64,000 nt of DNA from Methanocaldococcus sp. FS406-22 (lineage in GTDB: Archaea; AGJL01; Methanococci; Methanococcales; Methanocaldococcaceae), in assembly GCF_000025525.1 (NCBI RefSeq), contig NC_013887.1:1064729-1128728 (forward strand). Direction: 5' to 3'. Below the pieces are notes generated by a model. The model worked only from the letters and a program-made list of their open reading frames with translations. It was not told the DNA's origin and did no database searches. Positions 27,799-58,284 of the stretch are shown piece after piece. The position numbers and the translations under genes were made by a program. Each line of letters opens with the position of its first letter. Within the stretch, counting starts at the first letter, position 1.

Positions 27799-27885
27799 GC
27801 AGGGGTAGCCAAGCCAGGACTACGGCGCTGGACTTGAGATCCAGTGGGGCTTTGCCCCGCCTGGGTTCAAATCCCAGCCCCTGCG
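27799..27885 (+). tRNA. tRNA-Ser (anticodon UGA)
   Basis: Acceptor GCAGGGG pairs with CCCCTGC, the anticodon loop is CTTGAGA (anticodon TGA), and there is a long variable arm (GGGGC-ttt-GCCCC). The T arm is CTGGG-ttcaaat-CCCAG and the discriminator base is G. CCA is encoded at 27886-27888. The 3' half is the integration site of the element and remains functional because attL restores it. Confidence 0.96.
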
Positions 27886-27889
27886 CCAT
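27833..27889 (+). repeat. attL, 57-bp core in tRNA-Ser
   Basis: The sequence from CTTGAG in the anticodon arm through the encoded CCA and one T is identical to 58228-58284. Direct repeats of this kind mark tyrosine-recombinase integration into a tRNA gene. Confidence 0.95.
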
Positions 27890-28026: not shown

Positions 28027-29013
28027 TCACAACAACTTTTTTATCGTCTTCAACATCTTCAAAGCCCTCTCCTTAGAGTGGGAGTAATAAAGCGTTGTAT
28101 CCAAACTCCTATGACCAAGATACTCTTTTACAATATCTATCGGAACACCTTTATCCAATAAATCTACAGCCCTCCCGTGCCTAAGAGAATGCAATACAAT
28201 TCTCTTATTTTTAGGTATCTTTCCTTCCTTCTTAAGCTCATCAACAGCTCTTTTAAACACTTTATATATTGTATCCTTACTAACCCTCTCCCCCTTAGGA
28301 GTTTGAAATATATAATCATCAGAGTTCTGCCTTGGATTAAACTGCACATACCATCTCAAAGCCTCTAACGTATCAGAAGAACAAACAACAACCCTTTCCT
28401 CATGAGTCTTAGTATTTGTAATCCTAAAAGTCCCCTCATCAAAGTCACAATCTTTATACTTTAAATTTAATACCTCACTAATCCTCGCACCAGTATCCCA
28501 CAACAACCTAACAATCAAACAATTCCTAATACTCATCCTTGAATTCGACTCCATCATTTTCTCCAAGATTAAGTTTAAAGCATTAGCATCAATGGCATCA
28601 TAATGCTTAACCTCAAACTTGGAGAATCTCCTCCTTTCCTTTGATTCTTCTGCAAACTCTCTAAAATTGTTCAACCTCATTAACCTATAAAACACTTTAA
28701 GCAACTTGAAATACTTATCCTGAGAGCTCCTACTAACCTTCCTCTCTTTTTCTAAATAGTTAAAGAACCTCACAAAATCGGCATTAGTCATTGTCTCTGG
28801 TGTTTTATTCAACCTATTATAAACAAAATCTAAAAACACTCTCAACCTTAAAATATCACTCCGTATAGTGCTTTCTTTTATTCCATCGAATTCCCTTTCC
28901 TCCCTAAACCTATCAACCCACTTTTTAATTTCAGGAGATTCCTCAACCTTCTCCCTCTTTGGTTTCACCAACAAAAGATTTTTAAAATTAAGCCCGTTCC
29001 CCTTCATCCTCAT
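28027..29013 (-). CDS. int: Tyrosine recombinase (integrase) of the element
   Basis: 328 aa. N-terminal SAM-like core-binding domain (residues about 30-130), then the catalytic domain with Arg in WDTGARISEVLN, a Lys in TNTKTHEERV, HSLRHGRAVDL and GHRSLDTTLYYSH with the Tyr nucleophile. All catalytic residues are present. Next to attL, it most likely made the integration. Its start overlaps the next gene upstream by 26 bp. Confidence 0.95.
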   Translation of the reverse strand: MRMKGNGLNFKNLLLVKPKREKVEESPEIKKWVDRFREEREFDGIKESTIRSDILRLRVFLDFVYNRLNKTPETMTNADFVRFFNYLEKERKVSRSSQDKYFKLLKVFYRLMRLNNFREFAEESKERRRFSKFEVKHYDAIDANALNLILEKMMESNSRMSIRNCLIVRLLWDTGARISEVLNLKYKDCDFDEGTFRITNTKTHEERVVVCSSDTLEALRWYVQFNPRQNSDDYIFQTPKGERVSKDTIYKVFKRAVDELKKEGKIPKNKRIVLHSLRHGRAVDLLDKGVPIDIVKEYLGHRSLDTTLYYSHSKERALKMLKTIKKLL

Positions 29014-29251
29014 TCACCAAAACATAGTTTAACAATAAACCAGTAGCCTTACCAAACCTCTCCACAATCTCTTTTTCTTTGTCAGTAAGAACAATCCTCT
29101 TCTTATACCTCTTCTTAACCTCAATAGCTTTCTTTAACCTCTCAGCATCAATGATTTTAATCCCCTCAAGCTTATGCAAAATATACCTAAGCTCCCTACT
29201 ATCTATATTTTTGCACAAACAAAATGTGGCTTTAGTCATGGGAATCACCAT
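28988..29251 (-). CDS. Small protein of unknown function next to integrase
   Basis: 87 aa, basic and helical, with two Cys near the start (FCLCKN) and EKEIVERFGKATGLLLNYVL. It overlaps the integrase start by 26 bp and the upstream gene end by 20 bp, so it is translationally coupled. It could be an excisionase-like partner, but nothing beyond position supports this. Confidence 0.65.
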   Translation of the reverse strand: MVIPMTKATFCLCKNIDSRELRYILHKLEGIKIIDAERLKKAIEVKKRYKKRIVLTDKEKEIVERFGKATGLLLNYVLVNEDEGERA

Positions 29252-29585
29252 CTACCAACTTCAACTTCTTAACAAGAACCCTCTCTACAATATCCAACCT
29301 CCCCAAATACCCGACAATTACATCAAACTCTGGATTTTCCCTACAAAACTTCCTAACCTTATCCAAATAAGCAACAAATAACTTCCTAAACAAAGCATCA
29401 ACAGAATCTTTAATACAAAACGTCAACTCATAAATCTCCTTATCATTATAAACTGCCCAAATTGTAATATAATCATCGAAACTCCAACCATAATCCCTAT
29501 AAATATTCGTATCTGCTTCCTTCATTATAAATTCAGCCTCTATAGGATTAATCTCCCTACCCTTAACGCCCATAAGCATCCCCAT
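29232..29585 (-). CDS. Element protein of unknown function
   Basis: 117 aa, acidic N-terminus and helical C-terminus (DALFRKLFVAYLDKVRKF). No motif is recognised. It is part of the minus-strand run that ends with the integrase. An internal ATG near the start (MGVKGREINP) is possible. Confidence 0.65.
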   Translation of the reverse strand: MGMLMGVKGREINPIEAEFIMKEADTNIYRDYGWSFDDYITIWAVYNDKEIYELTFCIKDSVDALFRKLFVAYLDKVRKFCRENPEFDVIVGYLGRLDIVERVLVKKLKLVDGDSHD

Positions 29586-29778: not shown

Positions 29779-31014
29779 TCACATCACAGCAACGTTATGC
29801 ACTACGCCATTACTGTCAATGTAGTAGCTTTGAGCCTCACTCCTAACCCTAACCTTTGATTTATCCCTTCTCTTTTCCCTTCCATCAATTACCCTCGTCC
29901 ATGTAGAGAGAATTTCCATAACAAAATTATAGGCCTCTTCAACTGCGTCCATTGACTTTGATAGAGAGAAAGCAAACTTTAAAATCTCGTGAGCATTCCT
30001 CATCAACTGCATGTCTTGGGAAGCTCTAAACCACATCTCAGGGTCTTCTTGTAATGCTTTAAGATTTACAGCATTGATTGGTTTTTTTAGAAATCTCTCA
30101 TACTTTCTTTCTATTTTCCACTGTTCAGCTGACAAACTCTCAACCGTCTGCTCCCTATTCAAACCATAAAGCCCTAAAATCTCATGATACTTCATATCCT
30201 CAATTTTTGCCTTTGCCAACTCTTCATCGTTGTTAAAGAATAATAAATTCTTCATCTCGCTGTGAAACCTATCACAAACTTCAGTTGGTGGTTCAACTAA
30301 TTTGAAATTAGAAACATCGAAAACAACTGGCTTATACCCAGAGATGTATTTATACTCTAAAACTCTGATAGGGAGGAATCTAAAAATCAAATCAGATGGG
30401 GCCATTTTGCTCAATGGAACTATAGCATAACTATCAAAAGTTGCTGGATTCTCTTTACCCCAACTGTGCCTATACTGCTGTTCTATAATCCTAATGTGTT
30501 CCCTAAGATTAACAACGTCTTTTAATTGCTTTCTGTGTAGGTCATATTCAATAAATACCTCATCATTTGGGAAGATTGACTTTATACAGCATGTTTTTCC
30601 TATACCTTGAGAGCCAAAAATTAACAACCTTAAGTTTGTAAATTTAGCAATTGCTAAGGCAGTTATCACCAAATCATAATTGCCAATGCTCCAGTTATTG
30701 GCTCTTAAGTGGGAGCTAATAGTATCTCTTAAATGAGTTAAAGATTTGATTTTGGAAAGGTCTAACTTAACAACTTTAGAGTTTTCAGAGTGAGTAGATG
30801 GTTGAGTTGGAGTTATAGGGATGATGATTGTGTGATTACCTTGTTTTTCTATTTTGATGTAGCCAAGTTTTTGGAGTTTGTTTAAAGAGTTTGTTAAAGA
30901 ACCACTTTTAACATCTAAACTTTCAATAATTTCCTGTCTGGTAGTTTCTCCATTTTCTAAGATAAAATCAAGAATTTTCTTATCAGTTTCATTAAGTTTT
31001 ATTTTATTATTCAT
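29779..31014 (-). CDS. Winged-helix plus P-loop ATPase of the element
   Basis: About 411 aa. An N-terminal winged HTH (TDKKILDFILENGETTRQEIIESL) is followed by a linker. Then comes an AAA-like domain with Walker A FGSQGIGKTC and a probable Walker B (PVVFDVSNF). The C-terminal half is helical with no known domain. It could be an origin-binding or DNA-handling protein. ATG 31014 overlaps the upstream gene by 8 bp. Confidence 0.75.
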   Translation of the reverse strand: MNNKIKLNETDKKILDFILENGETTRQEIIESLDVKSGSLTNSLNKLQKLGYIKIEKQGNHTIIIPITPTQPSTHSENSKVVKLDLSKIKSLTHLRDTISSHLRANNWSIGNYDLVITALAIAKFTNLRLLIFGSQGIGKTCCIKSIFPNDEVFIEYDLHRKQLKDVVNLREHIRIIEQQYRHSWGKENPATFDSYAIVPLSKMAPSDLIFRFLPIRVLEYKYISGYKPVVFDVSNFKLVEPPTEVCDRFHSEMKNLLFFNNDEELAKAKIEDMKYHEILGLYGLNREQTVESLSAEQWKIERKYERFLKKPINAVNLKALQEDPEMWFRASQDMQLMRNAHEILKFAFSLSKSMDAVEEAYNFVMEILSTWTRVIDGREKRRDKSKVRVRSEAQSYYIDSNGVVHNVAVM

Positions 31015-31195
31015 TTTCACCACCACTTATTTCTTCATCTTCTTCTAAAATTACTAAAACAGCTTTTTTGCCAACATACTCAGCAGGTATTGAAGGATAA
31101 AATCTCGCAGAATTTCCCTGTTCTTTTATTTTTCCAAATATTGCTGGGAATATCATCCTCGCTTTAGTCCATCCCTTTTTCTTTATCTCTGGCAT
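31007..31195 (-). CDS. AbrB/DUF2080-like small DNA-binding protein (copy 1)
   Basis: 62 aa. The motif SARFYPSIPAEYVGKKAVLVILEE is that of DUF2080/AbrB-like swapped-hairpin proteins. A paralogue of the same length lies at 43348-43536. Both are divergent from a winged-helix gene and preceded by the same palindrome, so this gene is part of a duplicated regulatory cassette. Confidence 0.75.
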   Translation of the reverse strand: MPEIKKKGWTKARMIFPAIFGKIKEQGNSARFYPSIPAEYVGKKAVLVILEEDEEISGGENE

Positions 31196-31374: not shown

Positions 31375-31704
31375 ATGGAAGGACTCATAAAGCTATTGGC
31401 AAAAAAACACGTAAAAGAAATACTCCAATATTTAGACACTTACGGCGAGGTTCATTTTGGACAACTCCACAAAGATTTAGGAATTCACAAAGGAACATTA
31501 GGAAATGTTTTAGAAGAGTTAGTAGATGCAGGACTCCTCAATAAGAGAAGAGAAGACACAGGGACATTATTACCAAGAACATACTACTCACTAACGGACT
31601 TTGGCAGGAAAGTATTGATACTCATGAGAGCTATAAACATGTTAGGAACTAATCCAAATATTGAAGTATATCAAAAAGATAATAAAATAATAGTAGCAAT
31701 TTAG
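31375..31704 (+). CDS. Winged-helix regulator (copy 1)
   Basis: 109 aa. ArsR/PadR-like winged helix: VKEILQYLDTYGEVHFGQL, LGIHKGTLGNVLEELVDAGLL and TYYSLTDFGRKVL. It is paralogous to 43694-44041. It is divergent from the AbrB-like gene with the palindrome between, so it is a good candidate for the protein that binds it. Confidence 0.85.
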   Translation: MEGLIKLLAKKHVKEILQYLDTYGEVHFGQLHKDLGIHKGTLGNVLEELVDAGLLNKRREDTGTLLPRTYYSLTDFGRKVLILMRAINMLGTNPNIEVYQKDNKIIVAI

Positions 31705-31711
31705 ATAAAAC

Positions 31712-32070
31712 TCTTTGCAAACTTTTGCAAATCCAAAAATAAGCCCAAATTGTTGAGATTCAAAACATCCAAAAAATTGCGTTTTGGCAATTTACAGAAT
31801 AAAAAAGGAAGAAAATTTAAAAAGACAAGTATATATCTCTATGCAAAGGATTTGCAACAAAATCCGTTAGTTTGCAACAAAATTATCGGATTTGCAACGT
31901 TTGCAAAATATATAATATAATATAGATATACAATATAGATATACTTTCTATAAATGTTTCTTTTATTTTTTACTTTATTATATATTTATTTAGTATTTAG
32001 CTTTGCAAACGTTGCAAATCGTTGCATTTCTTTGCATCTCGTTGCATTTCTTTGCATCTTTTTGCAAAAC
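31712..32070. repeat. Iteron-like TTTGCAA array around an AT-only core (candidate origin 1)
   Basis: Left arm: TTTGCAA units at 31851, 31871 and 31891 with exact 20-bp spacing, plus further copies at 31716 and 31726. A perfect 18-bp inverted repeat (31890-31907 and 32002-32019) flanks a 94-bp stretch that is almost all A/T. Right arm: seven TTGCA units, the last six exactly 10 bp apart (32011 to 32061). The layout is that of a replication origin with iterons and an unwinding region. Confidence 0.75.
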
Positions 32071-32144
32071 TGTATATTTCTAATATCTCACAAAAATAAG
32101 CCATACTCATTGAGTTTAATAACTTTTTAGGTTAGGGGGAGAAC

Positions 32145-33515
32145 ATGGATAAAGCAAAAAGAGGGAGGTATTTTGATTTAGATGTGTTGAACGGTTATGA
32201 GTTTGAAGAATTTGTTGCCCGATTGTTGAGATTAATGGGATATGAAGATGTCCAAGTAACTCAAAGAACGGGGGATAAAGGTAAAGATATTATTGCCTAT
32301 TCTAATCATGGGAAGCCATTCAGATATAAAGTTATCGTTGAATGCAAACACACTAAGAGTGTTGGAAGGCCAGTAATTCAAAAGCTTCAAGGAGCTTTGT
32401 TGCATGAGTTGGGAGAGGACAAGTATATAAAAGGTATTGTAGTAACTTCTGGAAAATTTACCAAAGAGGCTATAGAATATACTGAAGAGATTAATAAAAA
32501 GCATGGTAGTTGGATGGAGATTGAATTAATTGATGGTAAAAAATTGTATGAACTGTGTAAAAAGCATGGGATTAAGATTGTTAGTGGGAATATTCAAGTA
32601 GTTTCAGACATCACCTTTAAACATTTGCCAAAAGAGGAAGTTAAAAAGAGAACTATTAATGAATTAGGGTTTATCAAAGGAATTGAGAAAACTACCTATC
32701 AAGTAAAGACGTGGAAGTCTTATTACCCCTATTATTGTGTAAGGTATTCTGTTCACTCCCAAGTCTGCACCAAGGTTGGTTGTATTTATGAGGTTAATGT
32801 TGATGATGAATTATTATTTGTGGATGGGGTTACTGGGAAAGTATTGGATAACTTACCACATGGCTTTTTTAGATTTTCTCCTGAGAATATGACTAAAATT
32901 CCTGAAGAGGAGAAGAATTTAATTAGACCTTTTAATTTTTCTGTTGATGAGCTTGAACAAAAGGTTATTGACTCTATAATCAATAAATACACTAAAGAGG
33001 TTGTTTATAGGGGTAAAAATAATGTTGAATATAGGAAGGTTTGCTCTCCAAAGAAAAAAGATATTTTAATTAAGGAGTCTTATCCAATATATCTGCCTCA
33101 ATATACTAACAGCATTAAAATTCAGGAGACTAATTATAATCAAAGTATCGTGGCTAATGAGAGGGATATATTTAAGATTAGTGATGATTTGGCTTTTTGT
33201 AAGGTTTGTGGTAGGGCAGTTCCTATTGGAGAAAGGTATGTTTGTCCAGTGTGTGGTAGGATTTTAGGAGCTTGCCATGTGATTTTTGATTATTTGGATG
33301 AAACTCCAGTGTGTCCAGACCATGCAATTCCAAGAAAGTTATATTTAAAAACAATATACTTTGCCTCTAAGGAAAATCTTGAAAAGTTTAATAACATGTG
33401 GGCTACAATGTCTTTATGGGAGAGGATTACTACTGATTCAACTTTAATGAAAGTTCTTATAGTGGTTGGAATTATTACGGTGTTTTATTTGATTAAAATC
33501 TTGGGAGGAGGATAA
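32145..33515 (+). CDS. Mrr-like restriction endonuclease with zinc ribbon and C-terminal membrane helix
   Basis: 456 aa. The N-terminal PD-(D/E)xK Mrr domain shows FEEFVARLLRLMGYEDV, GDKGKDII and VIVECKH. The middle part is unknown. Near residues 350-395 lie two zinc-binding clusters (CKVCGRAVP, CPVCGRILGACH, CPDH). The end is one membrane helix (VLIVVGIITVFYLI). It could cleave invading DNA at the membrane; another role in element transfer is possible. 26 more open codons follow the stop in frame (33516-33593). Confidence 0.8.
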   Translation: MDKAKRGRYFDLDVLNGYEFEEFVARLLRLMGYEDVQVTQRTGDKGKDIIAYSNHGKPFRYKVIVECKHTKSVGRPVIQKLQGALLHELGEDKYIKGIVVTSGKFTKEAIEYTEEINKKHGSWMEIELIDGKKLYELCKKHGIKIVSGNIQVVSDITFKHLPKEEVKKRTINELGFIKGIEKTTYQVKTWKSYYPYYCVRYSVHSQVCTKVGCIYEVNVDDELLFVDGVTGKVLDNLPHGFFRFSPENMTKIPEEEKNLIRPFNFSVDELEQKVIDSIINKYTKEVVYRGKNNVEYRKVCSPKKKDILIKESYPIYLPQYTNSIKIQETNYNQSIVANERDIFKISDDLAFCKVCGRAVPIGERYVCPVCGRILGACHVIFDYLDETPVCPDHAIPRKLYLKTIYFASKENLEKFNNMWATMSLWERITTDSTLMKVLIVVGIITVFYLIKILGGG

Positions 33516-33618
33516 GATGATGGAAAAGGTGAGCAATACTTAAGCAAAGAAACAGACCCAGAGTTTTGGGTTTCATTAGCCCGTAGAAAAGATTAATATT
33601 TAATCTTTGGTGATTCCT

Positions 33619-34089
33619 ATGGCAACTACTTATGAGCTAATTATCTATGGGAAGGTTCAGCATGTTGGATTTAGAGATAGAATTGAGAATATAGGTAGAG
33701 GTTTAGGCATTAGTGGAGTTGTTTATAATTACAAAGATGGAACTGTAAGAATTTTGGCTAATTTTGATGATGAGGAAATTAAGGAGCTGTTTAAAAAGAG
33801 TATTAAAGCTTTGAGTAAGAAGGATAAACTTATTGAAATTGAAAGAATTGAAGAAAGAGAGCTAAATACCTACATTGAGTTTCCAGAGGGGATTAATAGA
33901 ATTTCAGCAGATGATTTAATTGAGTTGAATAAAAAGCTTGATGAGGGGGTTAAATACATTAAGTTGATATTTGGAGAGTTGGAGGGGCATACTAAAATCT
34001 TAGAGAAGATTGACAGTAAATTAGATAAATTGAATAGTATAGATGAGAAGTTAGATAAGATTATAAAGTTGCTGGAGCAAAAACTCTAA
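33619..34089 (+). CDS. Acylphosphatase domain fused to a coiled coil
   Basis: About 156 aa. Residues 1-85 match acylphosphatase ([12 protein letters not shown] with catalytic Arg; [11 protein letters not shown] with Asn). The rest is a heptad-rich helix ending in [10 protein letters not shown] and [11 protein letters not shown]. Acylphosphatases are normally 90 aa single domains, so the tail is unusual and suggests a scaffold or oligomer role. ATG 33619 follows GGTGAT; a TTG start lies 12 bp upstream. Confidence 0.8.
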
Positions 34090-37520: not shown

Positions 37521-37937
37521 ATGGGAAATATAAGGATTGAGACAAAGCTTAAAGATTTGGAGGGGCTTGGAGATTGGATGCTCAGTAGGAAATATAGTTA
37601 TGGCTATGTAAGGAATACAATTAAATGGCTTAAGGAGATTTATAATATTTTTGGTAGTTTGGAAGTGTCTGAAGAGGATATTAATATAATTGATGATGTT
37701 TTAAAGAGGAAGAGAATGAAAACTGCTTTAAGGAGGTATAAGGAGTTTTTAGATTCAAAATCAATTGTAAGAAAAAGTGCTATTAAAAGTGGGAAATCTG
37801 TAAGGATTCCTCTAAAAGAGCTGTTTTATATTAACAATCAAGGTTTAAACATTAATTACGATGTTCTGAAAAAATTAGGTGTAAGTGAGGCAATATTTAT
37901 GGAAAAGTTAAGAAAGGGAGATTTTAGAGTAGTGTAA
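37521..37937 (+). CDS. SAM-like (core-binding-type) protein without catalytic domain
   Basis: 138 aa. The helical pattern with SYGYVRNTIKWLKEIYNIFG and TALRRYKEFL recalls the core-binding domain of tyrosine recombinases, but no catalytic domain follows. The last 42 bp recur at 44075-44116 with one mismatch. It could be a recombination accessory protein. Confidence 0.6.
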   Translation: MGNIRIETKLKDLEGLGDWMLSRKYSYGYVRNTIKWLKEIYNIFGSLEVSEEDINIIDDVLKRKRMKTALRRYKEFLDSKSIVRKSAIKSGKSVRIPLKELFYINNQGLNINYDVLKKLGVSEAIFMEKLRKGDFRVV

Positions 37938-38031
37938 TTAAAGGTTGTGCTTCATTATACCACAACTACTTAAACTTTATAATGTATAGTGTATAATGTA
38001 TAATTTAGTATAAAAAATGGAGTTGGTTATT

Positions 38032-38377: not shown

Positions 38378-38822
38378 AATTCCCAACCTTTTGTCTTATA
38401 TTCTCAAATGTATTTAAATATACTATTCTAAGCTTTTTTATTTTTGTACTGGGGTTTTAACTGTTTTAAAATTGTTGAAGTTTTGTTTTGGTTTGTTGGT
38501 TTTGGCTTTTCTCTCTGCTTATTGGTTTTTCCGTAATAACATATAAATCTAACGGAACAATTTTCCCTTATATAATTTAAATAGGTGCGATAATTCTTTA
38601 AAATTGTATATAAATGCAGGAGTCTCTTTATTTAATTAAATAATGTAATATAGAAATATTTATATTAATTACAAACATGCCAATTCCTGATGTGCTGGCT
38701 ATATTTAGTTATTTTTATTTTGAGTTTGGATTTGTAGATTTGAATTAATGAATTTACAGAGGGAAAAATTTAAAGAAGAAAATAAGTAAATGATATTTTT
38801 ATAAAAGTGGGAGGTGCTGGCA
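38378..38822. other. Intergenic DNA with a repeat shared with 44.15 kb
   Basis: 445 bp with no supported gene. The stretch around 38714-38746 (beginning ttattttgagtttgga) recurs with few changes near 44147-44179. The rest is AT-rich and includes the promoter of the lipoprotein gene. Confidence 0.5.
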
Positions 38823-39600: not shown

Positions 39601-40065
39601 GTAACCACATGTCATTTGATGACAAAATCGATGACAACTAATTTATTCTATTTTTGTTTGAATCTTTTTTTATTTTGAAGATAATTAAAAAAATAACCAT
39701 ATAATCTCATTGTCATTGGGTTATCAACACATATTACAAATATTTTAAAATTTTCTCAATTTTAAACCTGTTTTGAAAATCAATGACACTAATGACACCC
39801 AACCCCGCCAAATTTTTTCATCGGCTAAAAAATTTTTATGTTAATTAGGGTTGTCATTAGTGTCATTGGAAAATCTAAAAGTCATTAGAATTGAGATTAT
39901 ATTAAGATACGCAATAATATTTCTTATCACCCCAATGACATTATATTATTTGTCTGTTTTATAATAAAATAAAAACAAATAAGTAAAATTCGGCCAAAAT
40001 CTGAAAAATCTCATCAATGACAAAACGATGACATAATGTCATTGGTGTCATTGAATTGTCATCGG
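39601..40065. repeat. Iteron-like TGTCATTG/CAATGACA array (candidate origin 2)
   Basis: About 15 copies of GTCAT or its complement. Two form a 17-bp perfect inverted repeat: CAATGACACTAATGACA from 39781 and its complement from 39852. Between these lies a second palindrome (AAATTTTTT...AAAAAATTT). Further paired copies lie at 39609-39635, 39932 and 40015-40060. It is next to the large helicase gene, as in many plasmid origins. Confidence 0.75.
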
Positions 40066-40111
40066 TAAAATAGTGATGCCTTCAATGTAAAAATAACAAA
40101 TTAGAAAAGAG

Positions 40112-42457
40112 TTATTCTAAAATTTTGTATGTTTGGAATCTTACTTCTTGTATATCTCCTAACTTTTTCAATTTGTCAATTATTTCTTCTAATTTTTCAT
40201 CACATAATCCTGCCTTTTCTTTTAATTCATCAAATCCAATCTCTCCACTTTCTTTTATAATATTTAAAACTTTTTCTTCTAAAGTTTTTCCACTTTCAGC
40301 AGTCATGTCATTAAGTTCTATAAAGAATGCTCTGCAAGTTATACCATGGATTGTCGTTCTTTTATATTCAAACTCAATGCCATTCTGCCTTAAATAGCTC
40401 TCAATATCTCTCTTATTATCTAAATCGGGTAGTTCTTTGATTTTATTTGTTAGGTTTTTAAACCCTCTAACTGAGAGTATTATATAATATTTATTGTCTT
40501 TTTGATATATTGAATATCCTTTAGATGCGAGTAGTGATTTTATCACATTTCTTTCAGTAACCATGTCTAACATGTCTGTATCACATTCTATCCCTAATGT
40601 TCTTGCTATATGTATTGCATCTTCAATTATTGCTCCTTTTATTAATTCTAATAAGCTTATGTCTCCAAATCCCAATACTTCTTTTTCACTTTCTTCAAAC
40701 CTTTTAATAAGGTTGTCATAATCTATATTTAATTCAATATTATATTTCTTACAAATTGTTTTCCAGAGTTCAAGACCTGTAAGCAGTAATTTATATTTTT
40801 CCCTCACGGTAAATTGTTTATAAATTTCCTTAATTTCTTTTTCAGAGAATGATATTATTTCATCAAGCAGTATTTTAATCAAATCATCCCTGTATATGTC
40901 CAACACTTCATAAGCTTCATTAATGTCTTTGTCTGTTATTTCATCAAGCTCTTTTATGACTTTTAAAAATATTGCCCTCCTTAGAAGCCCCTTTAAGTCT
41001 TCAAGCCCTTTTGTTTTGAATTTTGGCTGGGGATTTGATGTTGCTAAAAACATGACATTTGCAATATATTTTTTGTTATGGCTGATTCTGTGCAAGTATC
41101 CATAATTAGTAGCTGAATACTTTAAATCTTGGGTTAATTGTGCTGAATAATCAATTTTTTCATCAAAATAAACTAATCCACATCTAAACCCAGAAATTTT
41201 TTGCATTAATTGATGGCTTGTAGTTTGAGAACTTGAAGGATTTACATAGCTAAGCAACATAGCAATACTTGTCTTTCCTACGCCACTATCCCCCCAGATG
41301 AAGACGGGAGAAACAATTTTTGGTTTTATAATATGTATTAAATGACTTGCAATGAATGCTCCTATGATTGTTAAGTTATGTGTTTTATTAAACAATGCAA
41401 GATATTTTATTAAATCCTCTCTAATTAAATTATCAATGTTTTTTGATAATATTCTATCTAAATGTTCTAAATTTTCACAAAATACGGTATCAGGAGTTTT
41501 ATATCTTTTTGGGATAATTAAGCGTCCATTACGAGAAATTATGGCAAAACCTTCAGTTTTTATACAATCTTTAGCCTTTTGAGAGATTAAGTATTTTAAG
41601 ACATTTTTTAATTCCATATATAGTTCTTTGTATTTCTTACACAGGTTAATAACTGGAGAACTTAGTAATTGACCTATATCATTGATGTCTATGATTTCAA
41701 CATATTTTTCTTCACTACCTTGTAATTTCCATCCAGCTACATAAAATACTGTTTTGTCTTCTATTGGGTCATAAATCTTTTCACACTTGTCTAAATGGAA
41801 CACTGGAATATTTTCTTCAGCAGTTATAACTTGTCCATCTTTTTCTACGGTTTTTATTGCATGTAAATAAACAAGATTATTGTCATCAATTTTTAGATGA
41901 TAATTAATTGTCATTTTTGGAGTTTCAATCTCAATAAGTCTCCAAGTATTTACATCCCCATATAGATTGTCTCTAAACTTTATTACAATTGGAACATCTT
42001 CAAATTTACTTATTCCATGTAATTTTGTATCTTTCAGTAGTGATAATATTGAGTCTACAAAAAATTCTTCAAAACTTTTCTTAATAGTTTTTCCTTCTTT
42101 TCTGGCTTTTTCTATAGCTTGGTTGTAGTCCCACTCATGAACTTTTATTAGAGTTTCCAAATCTATTAAACCATACCATTTGGACTCTTCATCGAAATCA
42201 ATAAATACCTGATATTTGGTAAAGAAATGTTGTTCTATAATCTCTGGGAAATAGAAATCTAAACTTTGGTAATACTTTTTAATGTTATCTTCAGAAGCCA
42301 ATACTACTTTATAATGAAGTTTTAGAGTTCCCATAGAAGGAATAACTTCAACTAAATCTTTTATTGTCTCTGCATGTTTTTCTCTTAGTTCGTTAAAAAA
42401 TTTTTTAAATATTGGATTTTTCAGGAGCTCTCTAATATTGTGAATTACTTCTGACAT
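40112..42457 (-). CDS. Large SF3/AAA-type replicative helicase of the element
   Basis: 781 aa. The centre (about residues 390-560) has Walker A FIWGDSGVGKTSIAML, Walker B GLVYFDEKIDY, a sensor region VMFLATSNPQPKF and Arg-rich LLRRAIFLKV. The long N-terminal half has no known domain; a primase part is possible but no motif is seen. The C-terminus is a winged helix (LEEKVLNIIKESGEIGFDELKEKAGL). The second iteron array adjoins its 3' end. It most likely drives element replication. Confidence 0.8.
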   Translation of the reverse strand: MSEVIHNIRELLKNPIFKKFFNELREKHAETIKDLVEVIPSMGTLKLHYKVVLASEDNIKKYYQSLDFYFPEIIEQHFFTKYQVFIDFDEESKWYGLIDLETLIKVHEWDYNQAIEKARKEGKTIKKSFEEFFVDSILSLLKDTKLHGISKFEDVPIVIKFRDNLYGDVNTWRLIEIETPKMTINYHLKIDDNNLVYLHAIKTVEKDGQVITAEENIPVFHLDKCEKIYDPIEDKTVFYVAGWKLQGSEEKYVEIIDINDIGQLLSSPVINLCKKYKELYMELKNVLKYLISQKAKDCIKTEGFAIISRNGRLIIPKRYKTPDTVFCENLEHLDRILSKNIDNLIREDLIKYLALFNKTHNLTIIGAFIASHLIHIIKPKIVSPVFIWGDSGVGKTSIAMLLSYVNPSSSQTTSHQLMQKISGFRCGLVYFDEKIDYSAQLTQDLKYSATNYGYLHRISHNKKYIANVMFLATSNPQPKFKTKGLEDLKGLLRRAIFLKVIKELDEITDKDINEAYEVLDIYRDDLIKILLDEIISFSEKEIKEIYKQFTVREKYKLLLTGLELWKTICKKYNIELNIDYDNLIKRFEESEKEVLGFGDISLLELIKGAIIEDAIHIARTLGIECDTDMLDMVTERNVIKSLLASKGYSIYQKDNKYYIILSVRGFKNLTNKIKELPDLDNKRDIESYLRQNGIEFEYKRTTIHGITCRAFFIELNDMTAESGKTLEEKVLNIIKESGEIGFDELKEKAGLCDEKLEEIIDKLKKLGDIQEVRFQTYKILE

Positions 42458-42842
42458 AGGCTTTCTCCTCTTTAATTTTTTTAGCTACCTCAAGAACAAT
42501 TCTCATTTTTTGTTCCTCTGTGAGTTTTGAAACTTCTAAAAAGAAATCATATAGGTCTGATGTCATCATATTTGGCGTTTCAGAGTTTAGTATTAAGAAG
42601 GCGTTGTATGTGAGGTCGTTTAAATGGTCGAGAGTGTTTTCCAAGTAATTTTTATAAGCCTCAAATGGATCCTGATATTTGATAAAATAAATAACTGGAA
42701 TAGCTTTTGTAGGCATAGTTTTGTATTTTAATATATATTCGTATAAGAGTAATATTTCTCTATTCAAATTCTTTGTATTAATGGCAACGAAAGTTTTTAA
42801 TATGGCATATATCATAAAATATGTTAGCGGGTTGAATTGCAT
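42432..42842 (-). CDS. Element protein of unknown function
   Basis: 136 aa, helical, with a coupled 26-bp overlap to the helicase start. The N-terminus (LTYFMIYAILKTFVAI) is hydrophobic but short. Not recognised; perhaps a helicase loader or partner. Confidence 0.65.
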   Translation of the reverse strand: MQFNPLTYFMIYAILKTFVAINTKNLNREILLLYEYILKYKTMPTKAIPVIYFIKYQDPFEAYKNYLENTLDHLNDLTYNAFLILNSETPNMMTSDLYDFFLEVSKLTEEQKMRIVLEVAKKIKEEKAYVRSNSQY

Positions 42843-42953
42843 ATTGGCATCACCTCTAAATATGCAAAGGTTGGGTAATTTTCTTTTTTATTGAATAACT
42901 AAATCCATAGATTTAGATTAAACACTAAAAAGAACAAAATAAATTGGCGAAAT

Positions 42954-43334
42954 TTATCGCCTAATAACATTCAACTTTAACTCTTTCAAATACTGCCTTA
43001 CTTCATCCTCTAAACTGTTAAACAAATTATCAATAATCTTAATTAATAATCTACCAGCTGGATTTTGTGTATTAGTATCAATTTCACAAATACTTTCTCC
43101 ATTTTTTGATACAGTGTAGAATTCTTTATTTATTTTCCAAATTTCGTATAAATTACCATTATTCTGGATTTTAATAAACATTCCATCTTTATCAAATATA
43201 TCAAAATCTACAACGATACCTTTATTAATTTCCTCAACCAATTCTTTAACTGCCCCTAAGGATTCGATTGTCTGGACGTCTATAACTAATGAGAGAGCTA
43301 CTTTCTTTTGTGGTATGGTAACGCCTATTTGCAT
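42954..43334 (-). CDS. Element protein of unknown function
   Basis: 126 aa starting MQIGVTIPQKKVAL. Alpha/beta. ATG 43334 follows GGTGG; the longer frame from 43388 runs into the AbrB-like gene and is unlikely. It follows the AbrB-like gene, perhaps in one operon. Confidence 0.65.
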   Translation of the reverse strand: MQIGVTIPQKKVALSLVIDVQTIESLGAVKELVEEINKGIVVDFDIFDKDGMFIKIQNNGNLYEIWKINKEFYTVSKNGESICEIDTNTQNPAGRLLIKIIDNLFNSLEDEVRQYLKELKLNVIRR

Positions 43335-43347
43335 ATATATCCACCTT

Positions 43348-43536
43348 TTAATCTTTTTGAATCTCAAGAGTTTCTTTGTCATTATCAAGAACTGTAATTA
43401 AAAGTTTCTTTCCACAATATTCTGGTGGTAATGCTGGAGAAATCATTGTTGAATTGCCTACTGGCTTTGCTACAGCTACAAAAGTTAAATATGCGTTTCG
43501 TGGCTTTTTCCAGTGTTCTTTTTTTACTTTAATCAT
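43348..43536 (-). CDS. AbrB/DUF2080-like small DNA-binding protein (copy 2)
   Basis: 62 aa, same length as 31007-31195. It shares AVAKPVGNSTMISPALPPEYCGKKLLITVL. ATG 43536 (MIKVKKEHWKK) is the real start; the frame reaching 43890 is a longer artefact over the palindrome and the divergent gene. Confidence 0.78.
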   Translation of the reverse strand: MIKVKKEHWKKPRNAYLTFVAVAKPVGNSTMISPALPPEYCGKKLLITVLDNDKETLEIQKD

Positions 43537-43562
43537 AGTTCCACCGTTAGGTAATATTAGGT

Positions 43563-43610
43563 ATGTTCGAAATTTTACGAACATTACTATAATTAAGGAA
43601 CTATATAAAC
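43563..43610 (-). promoter_or_regulatory. Operator copy 3 with TATA box
   Basis: ATGTTCG (43563-43569) and CGAACAT (43578-43584), a perfect inverted repeat with 8-bp spacer, 27 bp before the AbrB-like start. The TATA box (GTTTATATAG on the minus strand) lies at 43601-43610. It matches operators 1 and 2 except for a shorter spacer. Confidence 0.75.
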
Positions 43611-43693
43611 TTTTCGGTAAAATTGTAATATTCATATTTATATGGTAAATTCTAAAAAATTGTAAAAAAACAAAAATGTTTGGAAGTGGTATA

Positions 43694-44041
43694 ATGTTAC
43701 TAAAACTGTTATCAAAAAAGAGGGTTAAAGAGATTTTAACATTACTCGATAAACACGGAGAAATGTATTTTGCACAGATTAATGAGCATATTCCTATCAG
43801 TAAAAGCACATTAAGTGCTATTTTAAGTGAGCTTGTTTTGGCTGGATTGCTTGAAAAGAGGGAAGGTAGTGATAAACAAAAATTACCCAAAACCTATTAT
43901 AAACTCACAGATTTTGGAAAAACTGCATTAATATTATATGAGATTGAAGAAAAGCTTGAAAAAATGAGAAAAATACCAGATGTTAAACTTGAGTATAAGA
44001 TAGTCTCTAAAATGAGTGAAAATTGTGAAGATTTTAAATAA
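43694..44041 (+). CDS. Winged-helix regulator (copy 2)
   Basis: About 115 aa. Paralogue of 31375-31704 (LLSKKRVKEILTLLDKHGEMYFAQI; LPKTYYKLTDFGK). Divergent from the second AbrB-like gene. It starts at ATG 43694 after GGAAGTGG. Likely binds the same palindrome. Confidence 0.85.
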   Translation: MLLKLLSKKRVKEILTLLDKHGEMYFAQINEHIPISKSTLSAILSELVLAGLLEKREGSDKQKLPKTYYKLTDFGKTALILYEIEEKLEKMRKIPDVKLEYKIVSKMSENCEDFK

Positions 44042-44398
44042 TAAAATAGATAAAAAGTAAAAATAATCACTATCTTTATGGAAAAGTTAAGAAAGGGAGA
44101 GTTTAGAGTAGTGTAAAGTCAGGTTGGGCGTTAGGTTTTTTATTTTTTATTTTGAGTTTGAATTTGTAGATTTGGATTTTAAATTATATGCAAGCTTGTA
44201 AGATTATTTTTGTTATCTCGTGGAAATTTTTTTATTTTTAATTTAAAGCTTTTTAAAAACTTATTTTTTGATTTTAAGAGATAAATCAGTTTAAAATATT
44301 CTGTATTAAATGTTTCGGTAATCGAAAACTATTTAACATATTATGTAATTATACATTACATAAATGTAATTCTGATACGATAACAGTATTACTTTTTA
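44042..44398. other. Intergenic DNA with a duplicated gene tail
   Basis: 44075-44116 repeats the last 42 bp of the gene ending at 37937 with one mismatch (encoding MEKLRKGEFRVV). The stretch near 44147-44179 matches 38714-38746. Palindrome TTTCG-gtaat-CGAAA lies near 44313. No gene is seen, so this is the scar of an earlier duplication. Confidence 0.6.
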
Positions 44399-48862: not shown

Positions 48863-50206
48863 CTATAAGGATTGTGGATGCCTATAGGCAATTCTCTCAC
48901 AAAATTGTTTATCGTAAATAAAATAGCCACGGAATTTGTTTTTCTGCTTAATTTTTAGGTATTCGTCTATAGAGTTGCACTCTTCCATCATAATGTCATC
49001 AATGTCAAGGTTTGGAACCATGTTTGCCAGTAGCTTGGCATCATCTAACCTTACTATTTTTCCAACAATGGCCACATGCATGGCACCGTCAATCAATATT
49101 TTATCCAGCCCTGTCAAGAATTGGGTAGCTCCAAACAAGTTTATTCCCAGCGACCTCCCCTCTCTGTATATTTTAGTAATTGCTGCTTTACCGTGAGAGT
49201 TTGTTATGAAGTTTTGAATTTCATCAATGAAGAAAAAGACTGGGATTTTATACTTGAATGCTACTTTTATCGCCCAATCAACAATCATTTTAAAAATGAG
49301 GTTCTCTTCTTCATGTGTTAAATCAGAGTTCTGAGAAAAGTCTATAATATTGATTCTTTTGGGAGTTATGTGTTTGAAAAAGTTTTCATCTGGAGAAAAT
49401 AGCTTATCCTTTTTCAACCTGTCCATTGTTTCTTCTATCCTCATGTATGTCCTTGATGGGCTTTCTGGGTTTTTCTCATGTTTTAATGCAATTTCTAAAA
49501 CTTTATCAGGGTCTCTAATGCCTTCAATATCCCATATTCTTTTTAATCTTTCCCCATGTAGTGTTCCAGTTCCAACATTTGTTAGGTTTTCCAAAAATGC
49601 ATAGTTTATACTGCTGTATTTTATCTTTGCATCTACAACTTCAGTTTTCCAGCCGTTATCTGCTTTTATGTGGTTTAAAGGCCTTCTTGGCCTAAATACA
49701 AATCTGGTAACTGGGTATGCTTTGGGTTCTAATCCAAAGTATCCTAATATGGAATTGGCTCCAGACCATCTTGTGTATTTTCCTAAAACATTTGGCATTC
49801 CCATTGCAAAATCTCCAGGACTTCCATAAAAGTGAGGATATTTTTTCATTTGTTGGACATACCATTCGATATATTTCCATGTCTTTTCTCCGTATTTTTT
49901 CATGCATTCTGCTCTGGAATATTTTTGGGTTTCAATATAATAAATTTCTTTTATTTTTTCAGCTTTTGAAACGTCAATTTTTCTTTCAAAAACAAAGATT
50001 AGTGGATAAATTCCCTTCTCAGTGTATGCTGTCCATATTGCCTCTACCATTCCTCTCATAACAGTTGTTTTTCCAAATCCCGAACCTCCAATGAATAATG
50101 TATGGTTTGCTTCTTCTGTTTTTAGTGGAAGGGTTCTTATTGTTCTATCCCCATATTTTCTCCAGCCTAATGCCCTACCTCTGCCAAGATATATTTGCAC
50201 TTCCAT
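48863..50206 (-). CDS. HerA/FtsK-type ATPase of the element
   Basis: 447 aa. Walker A FIGGSGFGKTTVMRGMVEA near residue 41, Walker B VFFFIDEIQNF near 327, then a HerA-like run (IYREGRSLGINLFGATQFLTGLD). It starts at ATG 50206. HerA/VirB4/packaging ATPases pump DNA or drive secretion. Position in a run of membrane proteins points to DNA packaging, vesicle loading or transfer. It is the only recognisable motor in the operon. Confidence 0.85.
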   Translation of the reverse strand: MEVQIYLGRGRALGWRKYGDRTIRTLPLKTEEANHTLFIGGSGFGKTTVMRGMVEAIWTAYTEKGIYPLIFVFERKIDVSKAEKIKEIYYIETQKYSRAECMKKYGEKTWKYIEWYVQQMKKYPHFYGSPGDFAMGMPNVLGKYTRWSGANSILGYFGLEPKAYPVTRFVFRPRRPLNHIKADNGWKTEVVDAKIKYSSINYAFLENLTNVGTGTLHGERLKRIWDIEGIRDPDKVLEIALKHEKNPESPSRTYMRIEETMDRLKKDKLFSPDENFFKHITPKRINIIDFSQNSDLTHEEENLIFKMIVDWAIKVAFKYKIPVFFFIDEIQNFITNSHGKAAITKIYREGRSLGINLFGATQFLTGLDKILIDGAMHVAIVGKIVRLDDAKLLANMVPNLDIDDIMMEECNSIDEYLKIKQKNKFRGYFIYDKQFCERIAYRHPQSL

Positions 50207-50349
50207 AAGCATCCCTATTTAATAGTTGAAAAATAGTATTTCTGTTTATATTGCATATTTTCAAAAAATAGAAGTTTTCAGTTGAAATTGTGAATAAAAA
50301 AATATATAGCACCGTGTAGTAGTTGAAGAAAAAAGCAATTAAAAATCCT

Positions 50350-53274: not shown

Positions 53275-55398
53275 TTAGAGTATTTTAAGCACAATTATTG
53301 CCCCTCCAACAACCAAAATAACCACTATAAGAATTATTGCCCAATCTGGAATCCAGTCAATTCCTAAGCCGCTCTTAAACTGAGACCACCATTCTCCAAG
53401 TGTTGAACCTAAACTGAAAAACATACTTGGTTCATATTGCTTTGTATCATCAATAATCTTCTCTGCATTATTTACATCAGCCTCTGCTTGGTCATGCTGT
53501 CCATAGAACTCTTTTTGTGCAGCATCATAGTAGTAATCTCCAGCCATTTCGTAGTTTTTACTAACTTTATAGTCCCTCGCTACTGTGCTTGCATCATTTG
53601 AAGCCATCATGTCTTCTAAGTAGCCTATTGCCTTATCATAGCATTCTACAGCTTTCTTAGCATATTCCTGAGCTTTTGGATTACTTGAATATCTCTCTAC
53701 AAGGTGTTCTGCAGAATATTTTTTCTGCTTTAATGCTGAAATTGCACTTTCTGCAATGTTCTTAAGCGATTGTGCTTCACTTTCAGTTATTTTTCCATCA
53801 TCAATAATTGATGCTATTTCTTCTGTTTGCTTATCACCTAAAACGACCTCTGTATTATCTAAAACACTAATTTTTGGTTTTACAATAATCCAAATTGGAA
53901 TTTCATTTACATTTCCACAGTCATTATGTGGTTTTAAAACTGCATACACTACAAAATAAGTGCTATACCCAACAGTATTATTGTCATGTTTATATGTCAG
54001 AGTTGATGCTACTGTTGAAATGTAATCTCCCATATTTCCAAAACTTCCAGGAATCTGGTCTGCTATTACCCAAGTTCCATCAGCAAATTCTCTAAAAACT
54101 ACCATTTTGTAGTCATCAATGATGCTGACATTAATTGGCTTCATATTGTCTCTATTTGCAATTACGACGAACTTATAATCTGCTGTTGAATCAAACAAAT
54201 GCACTGGAGTAGCCCAACATCTTGCAACAATTAGAGAAGTCGCACCATTAGCATACATCCCATAAGCAGTAAATTCCCTAACATCTCCAAATCTTGCAGG
54301 TAAAGAACCTTCAGTACCCCCGATGAAATACTTACCATTTTGAAGATGATTGTATGCTGATAAAGATGATGCTTTTACATTTAGTTCTACATTTTTAACA
54401 AATTCTGGAGTGTAAAATAATCCTTCACCAGTCTCTGGGTCTGTTTCATGAAATTCTCCAACTGGTGTCCCTTGTGCAGTATATACATGTGTCCCATCAA
54501 TCCTGTAGCCTCTCTCTTTTAAGTCTCTCCATGTAGTATATTCACTTTCCCATCTCCAAACTTCTCTATAACCTTGAACTTCAACTACAACTTCAAACTT
54601 AGAAATGTTTGCATTCAATAATTCCTCTGCTGTTTTATAATCTGCAGTTCCTTGAACAATGTTCTTTGCCTTACCAACATATTTGTCTGGTGCTTTTAAA
54701 GTAAAGTTAAAATCCCAATCCTCCCCAAGTGCGTCTGGATACCACCAACTTTTTGGCCTTAAAACTAAATCCCCCGTCCAAACGTCCTCATACCACTTTC
54801 TTCCACTGTCATCCACAACATACGCCTTAACTGATGTTATATGGACACAATTTTGAGGAGGTTCTTTACTTGATGGAGCGTGAATATGTACTTGTAATGG
54901 AAATGGGCTAAACCCGTATATCTTCTCCGGTCCTTTTATAGTAATCCTTATATCGGCAAGAGCTCCCTCTGTTTTAAAATCATAAGTTGTAAGTGAGGAA
55001 CTCAGTTGCTGTCTCAGCTGGAAAAGGTCTTTAGCTGCTTCTGATTCTGAATATGCTTGTAGATTTGCCAATTTATTTTTGACATCCGTATCGTTGATTA
55101 ACTCATCTTTTGTTGGTGTTTTTGCACCAGTATTAACAGCTGTAGGGGTGTCATACTTTCCAGTTACTTTTCTATAAATTAAATCACACAACCCCCCGAT
55201 TGCTATTGCTCCACCAATTGCTACCAAGTCAAGCCCACCAGTTGCAACAGTAGCGGCTACAAGAGCTACAGCTGCTGCACCACTTGCAACCCCTGCATCA
55301 TCCCAACCAATTTCATGCCCAAAAATCTCAAAAGCATTAACAGGAGCTAAAAGATACATTATAATTATAAAAACTGATAAAATCCTCTCAAACTTCAT
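53275..55398 (-). CDS. Large spike-like surface protein
   Basis: 707 aa. Signal peptide (IIIMYLLAPVNA), then an Ala/Gly-rich hydrophobic stretch (about residues 37-72, GAAAVALVAATVATGG), a long ectodomain with no known repeat, a helical, charged region (about 530-660) and a final membrane helix (WAIILIVVILVVGGAIIVL). Layout fits a viral spike or fusion protein with a buried hydrophobic peptide. Start ATG 55398 is preferred over GTG 55407. Confidence 0.75.
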   Translation of the reverse strand: MKFERILSVFIIIMYLLAPVNAFEIFGHEIGWDDAGVASGAAAVALVAATVATGGLDLVAIGGAIAIGGLCDLIYRKVTGKYDTPTAVNTGAKTPTKDELINDTDVKNKLANLQAYSESEAAKDLFQLRQQLSSSLTTYDFKTEGALADIRITIKGPEKIYGFSPFPLQVHIHAPSSKEPPQNCVHITSVKAYVVDDSGRKWYEDVWTGDLVLRPKSWWYPDALGEDWDFNFTLKAPDKYVGKAKNIVQGTADYKTAEELLNANISKFEVVVEVQGYREVWRWESEYTTWRDLKERGYRIDGTHVYTAQGTPVGEFHETDPETGEGLFYTPEFVKNVELNVKASSLSAYNHLQNGKYFIGGTEGSLPARFGDVREFTAYGMYANGATSLIVARCWATPVHLFDSTADYKFVVIANRDNMKPINVSIIDDYKMVVFREFADGTWVIADQIPGSFGNMGDYISTVASTLTYKHDNNTVGYSTYFVVYAVLKPHNDCGNVNEIPIWIIVKPKISVLDNTEVVLGDKQTEEIASIIDDGKITESEAQSLKNIAESAISALKQKKYSAEHLVERYSSNPKAQEYAKKAVECYDKAIGYLEDMMASNDASTVARDYKVSKNYEMAGDYYYDAAQKEFYGQHDQAEADVNNAEKIIDDTKQYEPSMFFSLGSTLGEWWSQFKSGLGIDWIPDWAIILIVVILVVGGAIIVLKIL

Positions 55399-55434
55399 TT
55401 TAATCACCTAAAAAAAGAGATTTTGAAAAAAAGA

Positions 55435-58227: not shown

Positions 58228-58284
58228 CTTGAGATCCAGTGGGGCTTTGCCCCGCCTGGGTTCAAATCCCAGCCCCTGCGCCAT
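58228..58284 (+). repeat. attR, 57-bp core
   Basis: Exact copy of tRNA positions 27833-27889. It lacks the 5' half of the tRNA, so it is not a functional tRNA. It marks the right edge of the element. Confidence 0.95.

Follow-up and report, generated by a model that had tools for sequence, protein, structure and literature searches.

A 64,000-nucleotide stretch of Methanocaldococcus sp. FS406-22 DNA (hereafter the window) was analysed, and it contains an element (27833-58284) whose borders are a tRNA-Ser gene and a second, exact copy (57 bp) of the 3' half of that gene. These borders and the tRNA-Ser target are the same as those of MspFS406-22_IP1 (1,092,561-1,123,012), a published integrated plasmid of the pT26-2 family (PMC6972569), and the element is that plasmid. 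The att repeats, the tRNA-Ser gene and an integrase gene correspond to the tRNA integration by a tyrosine integrase which is typical of the family, and, from a family core of seven genes that were not each checked singly, we found T26-6p domains in 53275-55407 (Pfam 1e-43) and a HerA/VirB4-like ATPase at 48863-50212. Badel et al. 2019 (PMC6972569) gave MspFS406-22_IP1 one predicted origin and listed no Rep; MigKol5_IP1 was likewise without a listed Rep, and the predicted origins in the family had no common consensus or location. The features discussed below are collected in Table 1.

Table 1 Features of the integrated element around the iteron array (positions in the window).
Feature	Position	Strand	Remarks
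attL	27833..27889	+	57 bp, 3' half of tRNA-Ser(TGA)
attR	58228..58284	+	exact 57-bp copy
Tyrosine integrase	28027..29013	-	Pfam Phage_integrase 9e-35
DUF2540 protein, Rep operon	28988..29251	-	Pfam 1.4e-27
117-aa ORF	29232..29585	-	position held by PCNA (G024) or DnaQ/PolB-type exonuclease (G004, G009, G005, G007)
P0001, proposed initiator (Rep), 415 aa	29779..31026	-	start GTG 31026 or ATG 31014
DUF2080 small protein, first gene of Rep operon	31007..31195	-	Pfam 2e-21; conserved position
P0002, PadR-like winged-helix protein, divergent from Rep operon	31375..31704	+	Pfam PadR 1.6e-7; family survey
Outlying TTGCAA pair, 10 bp apart (31715/31725)	31715..31730	.	just past wHTH stop codon
Left iteron arm	31841..31907	-	ATGCAA 31841, TTGCAA 31852/31872/31892/31901; CGTTGCAAAT-type units on - strand
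19-bp inverted repeat, left half	31889..31907	.	GATTTGCAACGTTTGCAAA
A/T-rich core, proposed unwinding element	31908..32001	.	94 bp, 88% A+T
Right iteron arm	32002..32067	+	seven TTGCA sites, 32003 to 32062
19-bp inverted repeat, right half	32002..32020	.	TTTGCAAACGTTGCAAATC

The winged-helix (wHTH) protein P0002, encoded divergently from the operon that holds P0001, is probably a regulator, and the 117-aa ORF had no family match of its own. Immediately to the right of the array, 32145-33515 encodes a protein with an Mrr-type nuclease domain, then a possible zinc ribbon and, at the C-terminal end, a hydrophobic stretch; in the plasmid pMEFER01 a restriction endonuclease gene likewise comes after the origin-MCM region. 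The next product (33607-34089) has an acylphosphatase domain with a C-terminal helical tail, which is unusual plasmid cargo, and is 66-86% identical to copies in other elements (L140, L119).

Within 350 bp the array holds 14 TTGCA-type sites, compared with a mean of 2.4 and a maximum of 8 in 2000 dinucleotide shuffles, and among all 400-bp windows of the 64 kb it was the richest in repeats (z = 12). The preliminary description had reported TTTGCAA units 20 bp apart on the left and TTGCA units 10 bp apart on the right, and both spacings were borne out. On the left an imperfect ATGCAA precedes three TTGCAA sites in 20-bp steps, from which an additional step of 9 bp leads to a fourth; on the right the TTGCA sites start at 32003, 32012, 32022, 32032, 32042, 32052 and 32062, one 9-bp step followed by five of 10 bp. 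The inverted repeat, earlier given as 18 bp, is indeed perfect but one base longer, and sits within a pair of 35-bp arms which are 80% complementary. The 94 bp between the arms proved exact, but to call this core "AT-only" was an overstatement, as it contains 11 G/C; it is nevertheless here that A/T content over 94 bp peaks in the window (9 G/C, from 31905).

A feature beyond that description is that the arms mirror each other about one dyad axis at 31954.5. Four pairs of sites are mirrored (31901/32003, 31892/32012, 31872/32032 and 31852/32052), giving spacings of 20, 20 and 9 bp up to the axis and 9, 20 and 20 bp away from it, and the dyad score was above that of all 1000 shuffles (p = 0.001). 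The z score of -6.3 for a single-strand fold of the array merely restates the inverted repeat. Rfam has no family at this position. The locus combines what characterises iteron origins: multiple short direct repeats in helical phase, an adjoining A/T-rich region and a gene for a proposed Rep nearby, P0001, which occupies the MCM slot of the adjoining operon.

We compared the array to related loci in other methanococcal elements. In G024, which comes from another family and whose element matches MigKol5_IP1 of M. igneus Kol5, the region is kept at 82% DNA identity: the left arm is near-identical, the right arm is cut down to sites at 9, 20 and 20 bp, the mirror of the left arm, and one site of the outlying TTGCAA pair remains. 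The gene downstream is a different one from 32145-33515, and the reading of the array as an origin is supported because the array was kept despite this difference. G009 has the same gene order and, in the same place, another iteron (CATACGG/CCGTATG) mirrored around an A/T core; its P0001 is only 38% identical to that of the present element. Mirror architecture recurs with at least five other repeat sequences beside replication genes of methanococcal elements, and this comparison lends support to the earlier proposal that the array is the origin of element replication. No common 7-8-mer clearly beyond chance was found among the origin regions. Outside both arms of the present array lies a 33-bp direct repeat (76%; CAAAAATAAGCC...TTGAG) at 31734-31766 and 32091-32123, and a resembling TTGTTGAG stretch comes after the G009 array; no significant motif was found in common. 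G024 also has a second repeat cluster, AATGAAC/GTTCATT (L137 3201-3800), beside a wHTH gene that is truncated; this may be what is left of a second replicon.

A survey set of 33 methanococcal loci around P0002-type winged-helix genes was annotated with reference proteins. The common cassette is a wHTH gene divergent from DUF2080, Rep, an exonuclease or PCNA, DUF2540 and integrase. In most elements the Rep slot is filled by MCM, and in four by P0001, namely the present one (G000), G024, G004 and G009. Downstream of the wHTH gene, repeats were enriched in the 14 loci with Rep in the slot compared with the 19 without (Mann-Whitney p = 3e-5), and dyads beside the wHTH gene were found in 10 of the 14 but in none of the 19 (Fisher p = 1e-5), although these p-values ignore the relatedness of the loci and so overstate their independence. 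The remaining four slot elements have no dyad at that place. Where Rep lies elsewhere, a strong repeat window is found directly beyond the Rep gene (L104, L118, L134, L109, L122, L123 and L125), as is also the case for the repeat window at 39.6-40.1 kb of the present element; at a few of these loci (e.g. L125) further repeats are strong too.

P0001 is an intact ORF, about 75-76% identical to its G024 counterpart, with an N-terminal winged helix (residues about 11-70; Pfam HTH_24 1.4e-9) and a P-loop NTPase domain (GSQGIGKT). In the AlphaFold2 model the wHTH has a pLDDT of 75-86 and the remainder is poor, so that only the wHTH is usable. The NTPase domain could not be placed by family libraries, PDB profiles or profile comparison with MCM and with a 781-aa P-loop protein encoded elsewhere in the element. 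Membership of the MCM family was rejected, as hhalign gave the NTPase domain an 11% probability of matching MCM, over the Walker A region only, and so was a RepE/TrfA-type Rep, which has tandem winged helices and no NTPase where P0001 has one N-terminal wHTH and a P-loop domain. A profile search of 297 genomes together with GTDB and IMG/VR scans yielded only four family members, with the metagenome-assembled genome (MAG) G004 as the sole match in the GTDB contig scan; neither P0001 nor the array had a relative in plasmid records, phage records or IMG/VR. A PCNA or PolB/DnaQ-type exonuclease gene is found beside P0001 in three of the four members; in the G024 element it is the PCNA sliding clamp gene (L042 17419-18162), between P0001 and DUF2540. 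The G004 P0001 (L064 246-1517, MAG JALVUY010000240.1) joins a G009-like N-terminal winged helix to a G000-like ATPase and, by these resemblances, is a natural domain swap; the contig ends at the array position, and the array is not in the assembly.

Both the ATPase P0001 and the winged-helix protein P0002 had been put forward as candidate binders of the array. The P0002-like proteins of G009 and of G013/G015/G028 are 63-65% identical and go with different iterons, whereas those of G030 and of G015/G013/G028 are about 30% identical and go with the same iterons; in these comparisons iteron sequence is uncoupled from P0002. On the Rep side, the MCMs of G005 and G007 share the same iteron and are 58% identical overall but 87% over the first 90 residues, and the P0001 proteins of G000 and G024, also with the same iteron, are 76% identical. 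The members of the group with CATTCAC iterons have [VI][SA]MAK in common in the presumed recognition helix. A dyad array lies near the gene in all nine elements whose MCM has an N-terminal extension of about 60-70 residues (Walker A at residue 371-405; L136, L139, L121, L119, L133, L128, L103, L138 and L141), and none was found in the slot in the three whose MCM has no extension (Walker A at 317-326; L108, L111 and L112). The extension of the pMEFER01 MCM has a winged-helix profile match (6e-6) that falls slightly short of Pfam's own cut-off; Pfam did not recognise those of the other elements, which would presumably also be winged helices. The link between iteron and Rep N-terminus rests on few pairs, and there is a counter-example, as G030 and G015 have the same iterons although their N-terminal identity is only 37%. 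Iteron sequence nevertheless appears to fit the Rep N-terminal winged helix better than it fits P0002, so that of the two earlier candidates the ATPase is favoured, and P0001 seems much likelier than P0002 to be the iteron binder.

The G005 locus is the provirus of the isolated virus MFTV1 (MCM 100% identical), and its array has a dyad p of 0.001. In the free plasmid pMEFER01 the MCM gene has a TTCGG/CCGAA dyad array (about 12.9-13.3 kb) immediately upstream of it. The architecture therefore occurs in replicons known as free molecules.

The present element also contains a second replication-like module (39610-44041) with a 781-aa P-loop protein (40112-42457), AATGACA repeats of its own and its own paralogues of DUF2080 and wHTH. 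Proteins related to the 781-aa protein occur on free methanococcal plasmids (e.g. the M. maripaludis C5 plasmid NC_001811, 25% identity), and the G011 relative also has repeats directly beyond its gene; in G024 the protein is absent altogether. The AATGACA repeats (39610-40071) are mirrored (dyad p = 0.002). Because direct repeats flank the module, at 37893-37950 / 44072-44129 (88%, 6,179 bp apart) and at 38712-38746 / 44144-44178 (94%, 5,432 bp apart), the sequence suggests that a small plasmid entered the larger one here.

Taken from sequence comparison, it is probable that 31841-32067 is the iteron replication origin of an integrated pT26-2-family plasmid, most likely read by P0001. Several copies of P0001 would dock by the N-terminal winged helix on the TTGCA(A) iterons, which lie one or two helical turns apart on either side of the core, and with the two arms in opposite orientation the initiators would face each other over the A/T-rich stretch between them. 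The core would then be opened and helicase loaded both ways, with P0001 either recruiting the host MCM or being itself the motor, and P0002 and DUF2080 would probably regulate the divergent Rep operon. Replication of the element would, on this reading, still continue. Points against an origin read by P0001 are its NTPase domain without a curated family, together with only four members and a poor model, and the second Rep-plus-repeats module in the same element. GC skew, which had been suggested as a check, was uninformative: its two turns, at 30.7 kb (near the array) and at 46.0 kb, lie half a circle from each other but are explained by gene orientation because 21 of the 23 element genes have positive coding-strand skew.

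The array could be an origin at which P0002 or DUF2080 binds and recruits the replication machinery and P0001 acts later, as helicase or loader. P0002 is a winged-helix protein, it directly adjoins the array wherever Rep is in the divergent operon, and the DUF2080 and P0002 genes go with most arrays; we nonetheless consider this unlikely, given that the array is found at none of the 19 P0002-family genes without a neighbouring Rep and that, in the comparisons above, iteron type does not follow P0002 identity in either direction. That the array is a remnant, with the working origin at the second module derived from a pURB500-like plasmid, is about as improbable. The element could replicate from that module because the module has Rep and repeats of its own, and both the free-plasmid relatives of the 781-aa protein and the dyad beside its gene speak for this, but the P0001 ORF is intact and 75% identical to that of G024, the iterons are intact and conserved, and G024 lacks the 781-aa Rep.

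A role as a partition site (centromere) rather than an origin, to which P0002 would bind as AspA of pNOB8 does, is very improbable. AspA is a winged-helix protein that has a 23-bp palindrome as its binding site and spreads (PMC5120986), the TTTGCAAACGTTGCAAA units come close to being palindromes and the P0001 winged helix is weakly similar to AspA by profile; on the other side, the deviant Walker A motif of ParA was absent from the six frames of the element, there was no ParB match among the proteins scanned, the presence of the array tracks Rep and not the wHTH gene, and partition has no need of an A/T core. It is likewise very improbable, finally, that the array is an operator or promoter region for the restriction-like gene 32145-33515 or for the wHTH gene: it is intergenic and directly before 32145, but G024 and G009 keep the array or its counterpart in front of different downstream genes, and 14 helically phased sites with a dyad exceed what an operator needs.

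More generally, we tentatively suggest that the mobile elements of Methanococcales may share a self-targeting mode of initiation, in which Rep reads its own mirrored iterons and Rep and origin form a co-evolving, exchangeable pair without Orc1/Cdc6. Rep would then be either a winged-helix-fused MCM or the unrelated P0001, a new class of archaeal initiator. If this is true, pT26-2-family origins have a common design that is recognisable even where their sequences are not similar, two elements hitherto lacking a Rep can be assigned one, and iteron and Rep N-terminal winged helix, as a pair, make up a directly testable specificity code. Replication initiation in Methanococcales is poorly understood, and for that reason a two-part system with a small plasmid origin would also be useful as a genetic tool.

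The iteron origin is a known kind of origin, and as far as the open literature searched shows, what is new here are the mirrored arms, the unit of about 10 bp, the NTPase Rep in the MCM slot and the exchangeable Rep-iteron pairs. Like the bacterial iteron origins of RK2, R6K, F and P1 (PMC4980987), the array has short, helically phased repeats of the kind bound by Rep beside an A/T-rich unwinding element, and the initiators of those plasmids are winged-helix proteins, as proposed here. However, bacterial iterons are 17-22 bp long and their Reps have two winged helices and no NTPase (PMC4980987), whereas P0001 has a P-loop NTPase and one N-terminal winged helix, and in the present array, unlike in those origins, two arms are mirrored around the core. 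The stem-loop origin of the Sulfolobus plasmid pRN1 (PMC4234260) likewise lies near the Rep gene of an archaeal plasmid and consists of a long inverted repeat with an unpaired middle, conserved in structure and not in sequence, but it has a 21-nt stem, a 58-nt loop and no iterons, where the present array has repeated sites in both arms, and its Rep is a primase-helicase, unlike P0001. MFTV1 and pMEFER01 (M. fervens; MT711370, NC_013157) come with mirrored repeats adjoining the Rep gene, and MFTV1 also has the same operon plan; in both, an N-terminally extended MCM helicase is the Rep in place of P0001, and their repeats are of the CTAAACC and TTCGG types in place of TTGCA(A). With respect to the published pT26-2 family (PMC6972569), the present analysis adds P0001 as the proposed Rep and, behind the variable sequences, a mirror architecture that is conserved.
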